Part shown: positions 59,131 to 63,981 of the stretch, in pieces
How the letters are laid out: each line of letters opens with the position of its first letter
Position numbering within the stretch: the first letter of the stretch is position 1
Assembly (NCBI GenBank): GCA_028279725.1
Contig: JANQNE010000011.1
Location: forward strand, 151,872 to 215,871
Reading direction: 5' to 3'
Origin: Candidatus Nanoarchaeia archaeon
GTDB taxonomy: Archaea > Nanobdellota > Nanobdellia > Woesearchaeales > JANQNE01
Length of the DNA stretch: 64,000 bases
Notes under the pieces: model-generated
What the model saw: only the letters and a program-made list of their open reading frames with translations
The model's database searches: none
What the model was told of the DNA's origin: nothing
Translations under genes and position numbers: made by a program

Positions 59131-60108
59131 ATGGAAATAATTGATAAGATAAAGAGAAAGGTATCGGTTGGGTTGATCGCTCTACTTTCACATGCAACAA
59201 TGGCTCCTGCATGTACTGGTGCTAAACAGATGGCTATGGGGTGGGCAGGCATAACAACTTCTGATAATACTCATGCGATCTATTGGAACCAAGCTATGAT
59301 GCATTATCTGAAATATCTTAGGGTCAGCTATACGCAACTTATAGGTGATACTGAAAGCATAAGGTATGATGATATCTTTTCTGCTGTGGTTCCTGTTTCG
59401 AATAAGTTAACTTTAGGATTGCAGGCTATGAATTCAAGACAAAGCCTGACTGATATTGTTGATGAGGATATAACCTGGGCTAAGTTTGCTGGAGGATTAA
59501 AACTTAATTCTAAATTTTCAGTCGGTTGTGCAATCACTCCTAAATACACGAACGATAAGAGAGGAGATGTAGAAAGAGATGACTTTCTTTTTGATTATGA
59601 AGTTAGCGGCCTGTTTGAAGAGGATAATCTTTTGATAAAAGGGGATGAATTACGATTGGGTTTTCTGATGAAGTTCTGGTCTGGCTTAGATGGAGAAGCT
59701 TTTAATCTCAGGCCCGGAGCAAGCTATACTGTTGATGATAAGATCGGAGAATTAACAATAGCAGCTAACTATTACAGTGCTTTGCATCCTTTTGCTGCAG
59801 CAACTGGCCTTAAGATTCCTGTGATTGGCGGCCCTGGGATAAGAATTGGAATGGAACAGAAGATCAGTGTCTATGATCTTGGTGATCTTTACCTGCGTTT
59901 TGGCCTGGATGACAGCGGTATGGGTGGTGCGTTTGCTTATGGTTTTGGCTATACTGATGGTGAGAGGACAGTCAATGTTGCTTTCAAGAATAACAATGGC
60001 ATTAAATACGGCCTTCTAGAAGTTGAAGTTAATATTCTTCCTGTTAAGGGTTATGGAGATAATAAAGCAGGAGAATTGCTGCCAGTGTTAGGTGGGGAGG
60101 GTTTGTGA
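59131..60108 (+). CDS. Secreted PorV/FadL-like beta-barrel candidate
   Basis: Signal peptide; AKQMAMGWAGITTSDNTHAIYWNQA; alternating amphipathic strands throughout. Confidence 0.5.
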   Translation: MEIIDKIKRKVSVGLIALLSHATMAPACTGAKQMAMGWAGITTSDNTHAIYWNQAMMHYLKYLRVSYTQLIGDTESIRYDDIFSAVVPVSNKLTLGLQAMNSRQSLTDIVDEDITWAKFAGGLKLNSKFSVGCAITPKYTNDKRGDVERDDFLFDYEVSGLFEEDNLLIKGDELRLGFLMKFWSGLDGEAFNLRPGASYTVDDKIGELTIAANYYSALHPFAAATGLKIPVIGGPGIRIGMEQKISVYDLGDLYLRFGLDDSGMGGAFAYGFGYTDGERTVNVAFKNNNGIKYGLLEVEVNILPVKGYGDNKAGELLPVLGGEGL

Positions 60109-60205: not shown

Positions 60206-60586
60206 TCTGGACTTGATGAAAAAGATGATAGATATAAGCGGAATGGAAAACCAAGAAGCAAATACACTTTTTATGTCTGGAGACATACATTCGCAACATA
60301 CTGGATAAATAAAGGTCTTGGTGCAGCATATGTCAAAGAAGCGATGGGACATGCAAAGATGGACACAACAATAAATGTCTATTCGCATATTGAGAATAGT
60401 AACATCATGGATTCGATGAACGAGTTGAGGAATGGAAAACCAAAGGAAGAAGAACCAAAACCAATTGTTGCAGAAACATCAAAAGATGATCCAATAGCCA
60501 TAATCACACAGAGATATTTGAGAGGAGAGATAACTGAAGAAGAAGCAAAAAAGATGAAGAAATTTGTGGAGAAGGAGATGGTGTGA
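60206..60586 (+). pseudogene. Tyrosine recombinase C-terminal remnant with SHOCT-like tail
   Basis: VWRHTFATYWINKGLGAAYVKEAMGHAKMDTTINVYSHI; no N-terminal half upstream (in-frame TAG at 60203). Confidence 0.75.
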
Positions 60587-60676: not shown

Positions 60677-60756
60677 TAGATATATGCTTTTGTCTAACAG
60701 TAGTGACGAAGAAAATTGGATATAATTTATAAAACTTTAGTGATTTCTCCTCATAA

Positions 60757-63700
60757 ATGAACCCAAAAGAAGTATTTGATAATCCTGATGTTAAGCTTTT
60801 GACATCAGGAGACTTGGAATCTCAACATTTTGAGAGAAAAAGACAGATAACTGCGGATAAACTAGCTGATGCTATATCTGGTTTTTCTAATAAGAACAAA
60901 GATGGGGGATTGATAATAGTTGGGATTGAAGATGATGGAGCAATCTCTGGCATTTCAAGTCTTGGCCAGCAGTGGTACAACAACATCCAGACAGATTTGA
61001 ATAGACTCATACATGACAGAGTATATGAATTTAAGAACCTTGCATGTACCAATAAGGAAGGAAGCAGTGATTTCTTGCTATTGATATATGTGAAATATTC
61101 TGAGGGTAAAGTCATTGAGAAGGCTAACAGAAAAGCATATGTCAGGATAGGCGACCAGACACATGAACTAGATGAAGAAGAAAAAATAGAATTGAAATAC
61201 TCAAAAGGGCAACTAGAATTTGAGTCTGTCTGCTATGAAGATTTTGACATAAAGAAGCTGGATGATGATATGCTAGATCAGTTTATAGATGGTATAAAAA
61301 AGAGAGAAGGGATAACTTCTGATCTTGATGCAGAACAAGCCCTTATATCCAAGCGATTGATAAAAGATGAAGATGGCATAAAAAAACTAACCTCTGCTGG
61401 ATTACTAACCCTTAGCAAAGACCCCAAGGAGTTCATATCTGGGGCAAAGATAAGATTTCTAAGATATGAAGGAAAAAGTGAAGGTGCTGGAAGAAGCCTA
61501 AATGTTATAAAAGACAAGGAATTTGAAGGCCCCATCCCTCGGCTTATAGAAAAATCCTTTGAGTACATAAAAACACAGATTAAGGAGTTTAGCAATCTTG
61601 ATGAAAACGGCAAGTTTGTAAAAGAGCCAGAGTATCCTCCAACAGTAATCCTTGAGGCTATCGTAAATGCAGTTGTTCATAGATCATACTCGCTTAAGAA
61701 TGCTCACATATTCATAAAGATGTTTGATGATAGGCTTGTTATAGAAAGCCCAGGGAGATTCCCAGGCATGGTGACTCCCACCAACTTCTACCATCACCCC
61801 CGGAATCCAAAGATAATGGATGCCCTAAAATATTTTGAATATGTCAAAGCTATGGCTGAAGGCACAAGAAGGATGAAAGAAGACATGTTACAATCCAATC
61901 TTCCCGCACCAGAGTTTAAAGAGACTGATTCTAGCATTATGGTCATACTAAAAAATAATCTAGAAGAAAGAAGTAGGGCTCCGGAGGAATCTAAAGAAGA
62001 TGTCCCTCAATACTCAAACCTATTTAACTTGGCAATATCTGATAAAGGAGGAAGTCTATTAAAACCATCCTTCTTTGATTACGACTTCCTTAAATTGATA
62101 AGGAGGACTTTTATCTCGAAACTTATTGATACTGGCTGGTTTGTTCCTAATTTCAAAACAAATGCATATCAACTGAACAACCCCATATATGAAGTAAAAC
62201 AAGGAGATAAGATCATCATATCCATACTACCTGGATTTAGGTTCTCAATAAGAAAATTATCTGATGAATTATTCCTTATAATTGACCCAAGGGTATTACT
62301 TAAACCAAGAGTAACTCTAGAATATATCTCAAGCCATATAGACTTAAACAAAGAACTGATTGGAATGGATGCATTTGATAAAGAAAGTAAAACGTCAGGA
62401 AAGATCATCTCAATAAGTGATGGTGAAGTTATTCTTAAAACAAATAAAGAAGTGTTAAAAGCAAATCATAGAAATATTTATCCTAATATGAAAACCCATC
62501 ATCTACAAAGACTCATAAATGCACTTGGAATTAGTTATGATATTGATGCAGAATCAAAGAAATACTCTTTATTGACTGTTGTAGGAGCACCAAAGATAAG
62601 GGCTAAGAGAACAAAAGAATTAGCTGAGCTTATAGGGAGTTCTGTATTCCCACTGAAAATAGATGATCATAATATAAATTTAGACATAAACCCAGTAAAA
62701 CTAAAGAAACCAACTTTTGAACTTAAGAAAGATATAAAGGAAGTGCAAATAAGTGTAGATACTTTGAACAGATATAAGGGAGATATCGTCTTAGATACTC
62801 TCACAACACATGGAGCTTATGAGAAACCTGAGAAAGAGATAAGGATCATCCCTGTATGCACAAAAGATGTTTCTGAAAAGATGGAATACTTGATATCTCA
62901 AATAAGTAAGGGAAGTTTTAGATACCAAGGAGTTGAGAAGACATTTGGGGTGAAATTGATTAAGGAAAATACACTAGAGTGTAATGATTCTAAAGAGTAT
63001 GTCGATAAACTAAAAGAGAAAATTAAAGAAATAAAAGATAACTCTCAATACATATTTTTGATTTATTGTTCAGAGTCAGAATATAGTAGATTTGAATACG
63101 ATTCTCCATACTATGCTTGTAAACGGTATCTTTTGGAAGAAGGTTATAATTCACAAATGGTAGATACCAGCACATTGAATAATTTAAGATTCAAGGATCT
63201 AAACATATCATTGGATTTATTTGCTAAGAGTGGATTTACGCCATGGGTCTTATCTGAAGGATTCCCTGACTGCGATTTACTTATTGGATTATCTTACTCA
63301 AATATATCCGATAAGGATGGTCAAAGTAGAATATTGGGATATGTAAATGTATTTGATAAGATGGGTAGATGGAGGTTTTATAAAGGAACTACAGAATTAC
63401 TAAGCTTTGAAGATAGAAAGCAACATTTTACAAATCTTATAAAAGAAACATTAGAAGAACTTAAGGATGAGAGAAATATTAAAAAAATTCAGATTCATCA
63501 TTCTTGTAGACTATCTAGGGAGATAAAGGAAAAAATATATTCTGAGTTATTAACTGAATTTCCCGATATTGAACTTATTTTTGTATGGATAAACTCAGAA
63601 ACACCAATTAGGATGTATGATGAGTCTTTTTATTCCGATGGCAGTTTACCTAGGGGGAATTATGTTATCACTTCACCAAATCAGTTTTATCTATCAACTA

Positions 63701-63981
63701 CTGGGTGCAACACCCTAAGACAAAAGGGGATGGGAACACCAAAACTTCTTGAAGTCAATATAGATTGTTTCCCAAATAACTTAATCATAGAACATAAGTT
63801 GATAGCTCTTCAATTACTGAGTCTAACAAAACTGAACTGGGCATCAACTAAGACATTTTGCCATCTACCAATAACTCTCAAATATGCTAATGATATTGCA
63901 TATCTGATGAATGCAATATTTAAAGGATTTGGAGAATTCAAGCTTAATCAAAAACTAAAGAGTAATCCTTGGTTTTTGTAA
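60757..63981 (+). CDS. AlbA_2 (Schlafen-type)-HATPase-Argonaute (MID-PIWI) fusion protein
   Basis: N-term ESQHFERKRQITADKLADAISGFSNKNKDGGLIIVGIEDDGAISGI; EAIVNAVVHRSYS...FDDRLVIESPGRFP; C-term SPYYACKRYLLEEGYNSQ, FAKSGFTPWVLSEGFPDCDLLIGLSYS, RGNYVITSPNQFYLSTTG, LLSLTKLNWASTKTFCHLPITLKYANDIAYL. Confidence 0.85.
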   Translation: MNPKEVFDNPDVKLLTSGDLESQHFERKRQITADKLADAISGFSNKNKDGGLIIVGIEDDGAISGISSLGQQWYNNIQTDLNRLIHDRVYEFKNLACTNKEGSSDFLLLIYVKYSEGKVIEKANRKAYVRIGDQTHELDEEEKIELKYSKGQLEFESVCYEDFDIKKLDDDMLDQFIDGIKKREGITSDLDAEQALISKRLIKDEDGIKKLTSAGLLTLSKDPKEFISGAKIRFLRYEGKSEGAGRSLNVIKDKEFEGPIPRLIEKSFEYIKTQIKEFSNLDENGKFVKEPEYPPTVILEAIVNAVVHRSYSLKNAHIFIKMFDDRLVIESPGRFPGMVTPTNFYHHPRNPKIMDALKYFEYVKAMAEGTRRMKEDMLQSNLPAPEFKETDSSIMVILKNNLEERSRAPEESKEDVPQYSNLFNLAISDKGGSLLKPSFFDYDFLKLIRRTFISKLIDTGWFVPNFKTNAYQLNNPIYEVKQGDKIIISILPGFRFSIRKLSDELFLIIDPRVLLKPRVTLEYISSHIDLNKELIGMDAFDKESKTSGKIISISDGEVILKTNKEVLKANHRNIYPNMKTHHLQRLINALGISYDIDAESKKYSLLTVVGAPKIRAKRTKELAELIGSSVFPLKIDDHNINLDINPVKLKKPTFELKKDIKEVQISVDTLNRYKGDIVLDTLTTHGAYEKPEKEIRIIPVCTKDVSEKMEYLISQISKGSFRYQGVEKTFGVKLIKENTLECNDSKEYVDKLKEKIKEIKDNSQYIFLIYCSESEYSRFEYDSPYYACKRYLLEEGYNSQMVDTSTLNNLRFKDLNISLDLFAKSGFTPWVLSEGFPDCDLLIGLSYSNISDKDGQSRILGYVNVFDKMGRWRFYKGTTELLSFEDRKQHFTNLIKETLEELKDERNIKKIQIHHSCRLSREIKEKIYSELLTEFPDIELIFVWINSETPIRMYDESFYSDGSLPRGNYVITSPNQFYLSTTGCNTLRQKGMGTPKLLEVNIDCFPNNLIIEHKLIALQLLSLTKLNWASTKTFCHLPITLKYANDIAYLMNAIFKGFGEFKLNQKLKSNPWFL

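Follow-up and report, generated by a model that had tools for sequence, protein, structure and literature searches.

Schlafen Domains and Prokaryotic Argonautes

A survey of 2018 described long-B prokaryotic Argonautes (pAgos) that carry a Schlafen domain at the N-terminus (Ryazansky 2018, PMC6299218), and in a review of 2023 fusions of long pAgos to Schlafen-like ATPases are mentioned (PMC10573157). One review cites for Schlafen-pAgo fusions a 2009 paper from whose text, as searched, the word Schlafen is absent. A functional study of any member was not found in the literature searched, bioRxiv and most subscription papers lying outside its scope. Other dead long-B pAgos recognize DNA with an RNA guide and then trigger a toxic effector (PMC10620215). 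BREX loci repeatedly contain Schlafen RNase-kinase-wHTH proteins, which are considered backup suicidal effectors there (PMC12839542). In Caenorhabditis elegans, piRNA precursors are trimmed for PIWI by PUCH, a Schlafen nuclease that leaves a 5′-phosphate on its products (PMC10567574).

Here we analyze a gene that lies on a stretch of archaeal DNA of 64,000 nucleotides, which as a whole is referred to as the window, and that encodes a Schlafen (AlbA_2) domain, a GHKL-type ATPase and an Argonaute in one protein. The host is archaeal, with genes for eIF2-gamma and ribosomal protein S6e inside the window; the source genome is small (1.42 Mb) and 96% complete, and the host can plausibly be placed within DPANN. 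The novelty implied by the initial annotation has to be given up, since the full-length model in PADLOC-DB v2, the 2018 survey (PMC6299218) and the 2023 review (PMC10573157) all precede it. The architecture is already catalogued (PADLOC-DB, 2018 survey), and the window protein adds to it a divergent archaeal member.

Domain Structure of the Fusion Protein

The features of the gene and its immediate surroundings are given in Table 1. That all parts belong to a single polypeptide is borne out by the one intact frame of 1074 aa and by its full-length match to the PADLOC model PDLC02394 "pAgo", in which residues 2–1074 align with positions 3–1121 of 1121 (E 3.9e-237); the C-terminal half by itself also matches this model (E 3.5e-157). 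The Pfam matches to SLFN_AlbA_2 (residues 21–138, E 4.3e-12) and HATPase_c_4 (residues 316–398, E 1.4e-17) both exceed the gathering cut-off, and the Pfam search with the C-terminal 644 aa gave no significant match. With phmmer against the PDB, residues 775–1074 were found to match RsAgo (E 5e-8) and residues 289–387, in the ATPase region, to match 3lmm.

Table 1. Coordinates of the fusion gene, its domains and adjoining features in the window
Feature	Position	Strand	Basis or remarks
Schlafen(AlbA_2)-GHKL ATPase-Argonaute fusion gene	60757..63981	+	single ATG-start open frame, 1074 aa
SLFN_AlbA_2 domain, aa 21-138	60817..61170	+	Pfam; SLFN RNase profile; triad E21/E26/D59
HATPase_c_4 (GHKL-type) ATPase, aa 300-398	61654..61950	+	Pfam; N-box E300xxxN304 to EGTxRM
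Argonaute N-terminal part, L1 and PAZ-like region, aa 418-660 (approximate boundaries)	62008..62736	+	AlphaFold/Foldseek
MID domain, aa 690-840 (approximate)	62824..63276	+	guide pocket Y785/K789/Q800/K824
PIWI domain, aa 841-1074	63277..63978	+	catalytic residues lost: S846, S916, N1045
Tyrosine integrase, C-terminal remnant, directly upstream of the fusion gene	60218..60586	+	PF00589, E 5e-7
TATA-like box TTTATAAAA, ~25 bases ahead of the ATG	60726..60734	+	sequence reading

An AlphaFold model of the window protein, calculated from an input of 30 window and locus sequences with the plasmid-collection sequence left out, has a mean pLDDT of 84. Among PDB entries, Foldseek ranks RsAgo in complex with guide RNA and target DNA first (E 5.5e-31, ~800 alignment columns), which points to a long pAgo fold (N/L1/PAZ-like, MID and PIWI) in the C-terminal half of the model. 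The domain calls made there for AlbA_2, the ATPase and the long pAgo have thus all held; a protein lacking either the MID/PIWI or the AlbA_2 match would have spoken against them, and both matches were found. The motifs quoted earlier (E300xxxN304, HRSY, DDRLVIESPGRFP, FRFSIRKLSDELFLIIDPRVLL, LLSLTKLNWAS and LPITLKYA) are likewise all in the protein. Residues 161–333 of the window protein (P0001), between the Schlafen and ATPase motifs, also match PADLOC models for Sir2-type proteins associated with pAgos (Aga_SIR2-PNTD1-PNTD2, E 2e-9), hinting at a module common to other pAgo systems.

Active Sites

In RsAgo, Y463, K467, Q478 and K506 anchor the guide 5′-phosphate (PMC6299218). Y785, K789, Q800 and K824 of the window protein align with these residues, and the Y-K-Q-K set is invariant in every homologue covering the pocket; the 5′-phosphate guide pocket is thus intact. 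In the PIWI domain, the catalytic positions are S846, S916 and N1045, as compared to D in active-type pAgos; active-type cyanobacterial pAgos, which served as internal control within the same alignment, show GLDV, HRDG and SDKI there. Judged by these three positions, the catalytic DEDX tetrad is absent, as in long-B pAgos, and the PIWI domain is catalytically dead and predicted to be unable to slice.

Searching with a profile built from the N-terminal half gave matches to 3lmm (E 8e-31) and to the Schlafen RNase lobes of SLFN13, SLFN12, SLFN11, SLFN14 and SLFN5. The RNase triad of SLFN13 is E205/E210/D248, of which E205 and E210 are essential (PMC5862951), and in the profile alignment these three residues fall on E21, E26 and D59 of the window protein. 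All intact aligned fusions have E at the first position and E or D at the second. The third acid is D only in the two archaeal proteins and is A, K or S in the bacterial fusions; several stand-alone Schlafen-ATPase relatives lack it, too. The RNase-type triad is thus complete in the archaeal branch, for which RNA cleavage is predicted; with D59 replaced in the bacterial fusions, some members may bind nucleic acid instead of cutting it. In the ATPase, N304 is found in all rows covering it, E300 in all rows with a readable residue (L076 has an X at this site), and the EGT motif is conserved in the family alignment.

Homologues, Frequency and Selection

The search for other AlbA_2-pAgo fusions, suggested in the initial annotation, was successful. 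Full-length homologues were found in five cyanobacterial genomes and in one Bacteroidota genome, on a plasmid of Rubrobacter radiotolerans (31% identity along the entire length) and on a contig of the viral collection, where the gene adjoins a prophage integrase. The closest relative is from a second archaeon of the same order (51–52% identity); this fusion is split across two contig ends and has an in-frame TAA in its MID part. The copy in a Calothrix MAG (L020:2635-6191) has a frame broken mid-gene and an AlbA_2 part that is divergent compared to the other fusions. A scan of genome contigs with only two short peptide patterns yielded two relatives; the searches by phylum, order and class yielded more. 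The fusion is infrequent in the samples: it was present in 2 of 359 sampled genomes of the archaeal order, in 6 of 340 of the cyanobacterial class and in 1 of 346 of the Bacteroidota sample, and no further one was found in the order of genome G731. Scanning the viral contigs with A2 gave no match and with A7 the one fusion beside a prophage integrase. In this last case (L094:699-4124 and L097, IMGVR_UViG_3300035010_000006) an intact homologue of 1141 aa adjoins a serine integrase at one end of a prophage with terminase, Sak4, helicase and primase genes; the fusion may be cargo of the prophage or belong to the host DNA immediately beyond it.

In two close cyanobacterial pairs dN/dS is 0.03–0.25 for every domain, so that purifying selection acts on all of them. 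The ATPase (~0.05) is more constrained than AlbA_2 (0.14–0.25), which is among the regions under less constraint. Since the identical end-to-end architecture is found in independent genomes and all domains are under purifying selection in the cyanobacterial pairs, an assembly artefact can be dismissed. It is confirmed that Schlafen, ATPase and Argonaute are genuinely fused in one archaeal protein, and that this fusion is conserved and of a defence type.

Origin of the Two Halves

In the tree of the C-terminal (PIWI) halves, which is unrooted and from which RsAgo itself was left out, the ten fusions group in a single clade (100/98), separate from the long-A, long-B and short pAgos that were sampled. 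As far as such a tree can show, the clade is not nested among the sampled RsAgo-like long-B proteins but is a separate branch. Its sister, with weak support, is a stand-alone PIWI protein from a Bacteroidota locus (L021). The gene run at this locus (L021:4265-11638) comprises genes for an MmeI-type restriction enzyme, the PIWI protein (which lacks a Schlafen half), a protein with a RelA/SpoT domain and a free-standing AlbA_2 protein, and is possibly an unfused counterpart of the fusion. Another pAgo relative, encoded on an Adhaeribacter plasmid (L093:3026-5353), has a topoisomerase-type zinc ribbon (PF01396) at its N-terminus; umuD and a Y-family polymerase gene are nearby.

In the tree of the N-terminal halves the fusions are nearest to stand-alone proteins from Azospirillum and distant from the archaeal stand-alone ones, which suggests that the fusion reached the archaeon by horizontal transfer and was not built from local archaeal parts. 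Against an independent origin of the archaeal fusion, this tree places all fusions in one clade, but with weak support (79/83), and a grouping of the archaeal pair with the Azospirillum stand-alone proteins was not rejected (p-AU 0.112). The Schlafen-ATPase module is widespread without any pAgo. At the C-terminus of the stand-alone proteins is a winged helix, of DeoR type in L003, and it is this position that the Argonaute occupies in the fusion. Two stand-alone relatives of the N-terminal half (L087:2986-4422 and L090:2965-4395) adjoin an integrase, to which a Streptococcus plasmid adds a LexA-family regulator. PHROG 12156 calls the stand-alone family "DNA helicase".

Genomic Surroundings

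Over the region of the fusion gene the G+C content drops from ~38% to ~27–31%. The position of the TATA-like box suggests a leaderless transcript. Past the end of the window follows a convergent gene for a protein of 874 aa (L019:926-3547) composed of HSDR_N_2, N6_Mtase and a type I specificity-like end, the predicted product being like a type IIG restriction enzyme. Neither the window nor L019 contains a tRNA gene to which integration could be linked, and no convincing direct repeats were found when the flanks were inspected for att sites. The window also encodes, at 59131-60108, a protein of 325 aa with a signal-like N-terminus and a weak match to the FadL/OMPP1 outer-membrane family (E 0.009, below cut-off), in an archaeal genome.

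Two cyanobacterial copies (L075 and L077) are embedded in BREX loci, preceded by PglX and followed by PglZ and BrxL. The BREX families were scanned on L075, and L077 was assigned by the same protein order in its sequence. At L075 PglX is in two pieces, and a small PIN-domain gene is just upstream of the fusion. The archaeal relative has a MutH-type restriction enzyme gene downstream of the fusion, genes for an Eco57I methylase and a T5orf172/ResIII protein are close to the Bacteroidota copy, and a third cyanobacterium (L076) has an AIPR gene upstream. The flanks at L078 and L079 contain no recognized defence gene. These neighbours come from few loci, which are given without a statistical background.

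A Proposed Sensor and Effector in One Chain

For the function of the protein we prefer, at roughly an even chance, the following explanation: invader DNA would be sensed by a dead, RNA-guided pAgo that acts through the ATPase to turn on a Schlafen RNase, with abortive defence as the outcome. The C-terminal long pAgo, predicted to be unable to slice, would hold a 5′-phosphorylated guide, presumably RNA by likeness to RsAgo, and so loaded would recognize complementary invader DNA. The GHKL-type ATPase would relay target binding to the Schlafen domain at the N-terminus. This domain would in turn cleave RNA, by analogy with SLFN13 either tRNA or rRNA, and so bring the growth of the invaded cell to a stop. 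The pAgo would thus stand in for the C-terminal winged helix of the stand-alone Schlafen-ATPase proteins. This explanation is preferred because an intact guide pocket and a dead PIWI domain are combined with a conserved ATPase and, in the window protein, with a complete triad; because there are defence genes in the neighbourhood (BREX, type IIG-like, MutH-type, Eco57I methylase, AIPR); because other dead long-B pAgos trigger toxic effectors (PMC10620215); and because BREX-linked Schlafen-kinase-wHTH proteins are viewed as backup suicidal RNases (PMC12839542). The domains, the dead pAgo, the guide pocket, the triad and the defence setting fit the pAgo sensor and AlbA_2/ATPase effector already proposed in the initial annotation; the chemistry of guide and target, the switching by ATP, the cleavage of RNA and the abortive outcome are what we infer. 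As the fusions form a separate branch in the PIWI tree, any behaviour copied from RsAgo is one step removed.

It is also conceivable, though rather unlikely, that AlbA_2 only binds nucleic acid and that the ATPase and the dead pAgo hold or remodel invader DNA or its transcripts, silencing the invader while the cell survives. The 2018 survey labels the AlbA_2-type domain as DNA-binding (PMC6299218), but this label is a Pfam annotation with no assay behind it. The absence of the third acid from the bacterial fusions and from several of the stand-alone relatives, and the lower constraint on AlbA_2, would agree with mere binding, as would the reported reduction of plasmid levels by RsAgo, itself a dead pAgo (PMC6299218); the two acids essential in SLFN13 are, however, present as E21 and E26(D) in every intact fusion of the alignment, and the triad is complete in the archaeal pair. 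The same retained acids together with the 5′-phosphate pocket could mean that the Schlafen domain cleaves RNA into 5′-phosphate guides in cis for the fused pAgo, as a one-chain prokaryotic counterpart of PUCH-PIWI. PUCH is indeed a Schlafen nuclease with such products (PMC10567574), and no separate guide-making gene was seen beside the window gene. Yet the module is widespread without pAgo and regarded as an abortive-infection RNase in BREX loci (PMC12839542), and the bacterial fusions lack the third acid; we therefore consider guide making improbable, although from the fusion alone an upstream role cannot be told from a downstream one.

Two further explanations are less probable still. The location of two cyanobacterial copies between PglX and PglZ/BrxL could indicate an accessory part that regulates larger defence systems such as BREX and does not act alone, which we find very unlikely because most homologues, including the window gene, are outside BREX loci and the two BREX copies are close relatives of one another in the C-terminal-half tree. 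The integrase remnant next to the window gene, the in-frame stop in its closest relative and the broken Calothrix frame might be taken as signs of a decaying or non-functional fusion in the window archaeon, but the frame of the window gene is intact with all key residues present, and in the cyanobacterial pairs purifying selection acts on all domains, so that decay is the least credible of the explanations.

Should the sensor-effector explanation be true, RNA-guided DNA sensing would be tied directly to translation arrest. The dead pAgos of the cited literature work with DNase, Sir2, TIR or membrane effectors; a fused Schlafen RNase would add RNA cleavage within the same chain, and two immune families, Schlafen and Argonaute, which also meet in the piRNA pathway of C. 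elegans, would be joined. The complete Schlafen triad makes the archaeal member well suited as a test case; the parts are known, their coupling is a proposal.

Comparison with Known Systems

PDLC02394 (1121 aa) aligns end to end with the window protein as well as with the bacterial fusions. The window protein scores only 788 bits as compared to 1398–1922 bits for three intact bacterial fusions and thus represents a divergent archaeal branch. With the long-B pAgos carrying an N-terminal Schlafen domain (PF04326) it shares the layout, AlbA_2 before a PAZ-bearing dead long pAgo; in the survey, however, the added domain is considered DNA-binding and an ATPase is not mentioned (Ryazansky 2018, PMC6299218), whereas in the window fusion an ATPase and an RNase-type triad were identified.

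In BPAN, BPAS and BPAM a dead long-B pAgo likewise functions as sensor for a toxic effector (PMC10620215), but there the effector, a nuclease, Sir2 or membrane protein, is separate from the pAgo, whereas the candidate effector of the window protein is fused and of the Schlafen type. By definition the effector of these systems has a gene of its own (og_15, og_44 or og_100) within a short operon; no such gene was found at the window locus, where the neighbours are the integrase remnant and the convergent type IIG-like gene. The N-terminal module is held in common with the bacterial Schlafen RNase-minimal histidine-kinase ATPase-wHTH proteins (PMC12839542; PHROG 12156; PDB 3lmm), which are found repeatedly in BREX loci as well as on phages and plasmids; these have a C-terminal winged helix where the fusion has an entire Argonaute. 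In the texts searched, Argonaute and PIWI are unmentioned in the BREX diversity paper (PMC12839542) and Schlafen in the long-B effector paper (PMC10620215), so that the BREX placement and the complete archaeal triad were apparently not noted in these papers. Finally, in PUCH a Schlafen nuclease is likewise paired with a PIWI/Argonaute protein, but PUCH is eukaryotic, a separate trimer that processes piRNA precursors and is not fused to the Argonaute (PMC10567574).
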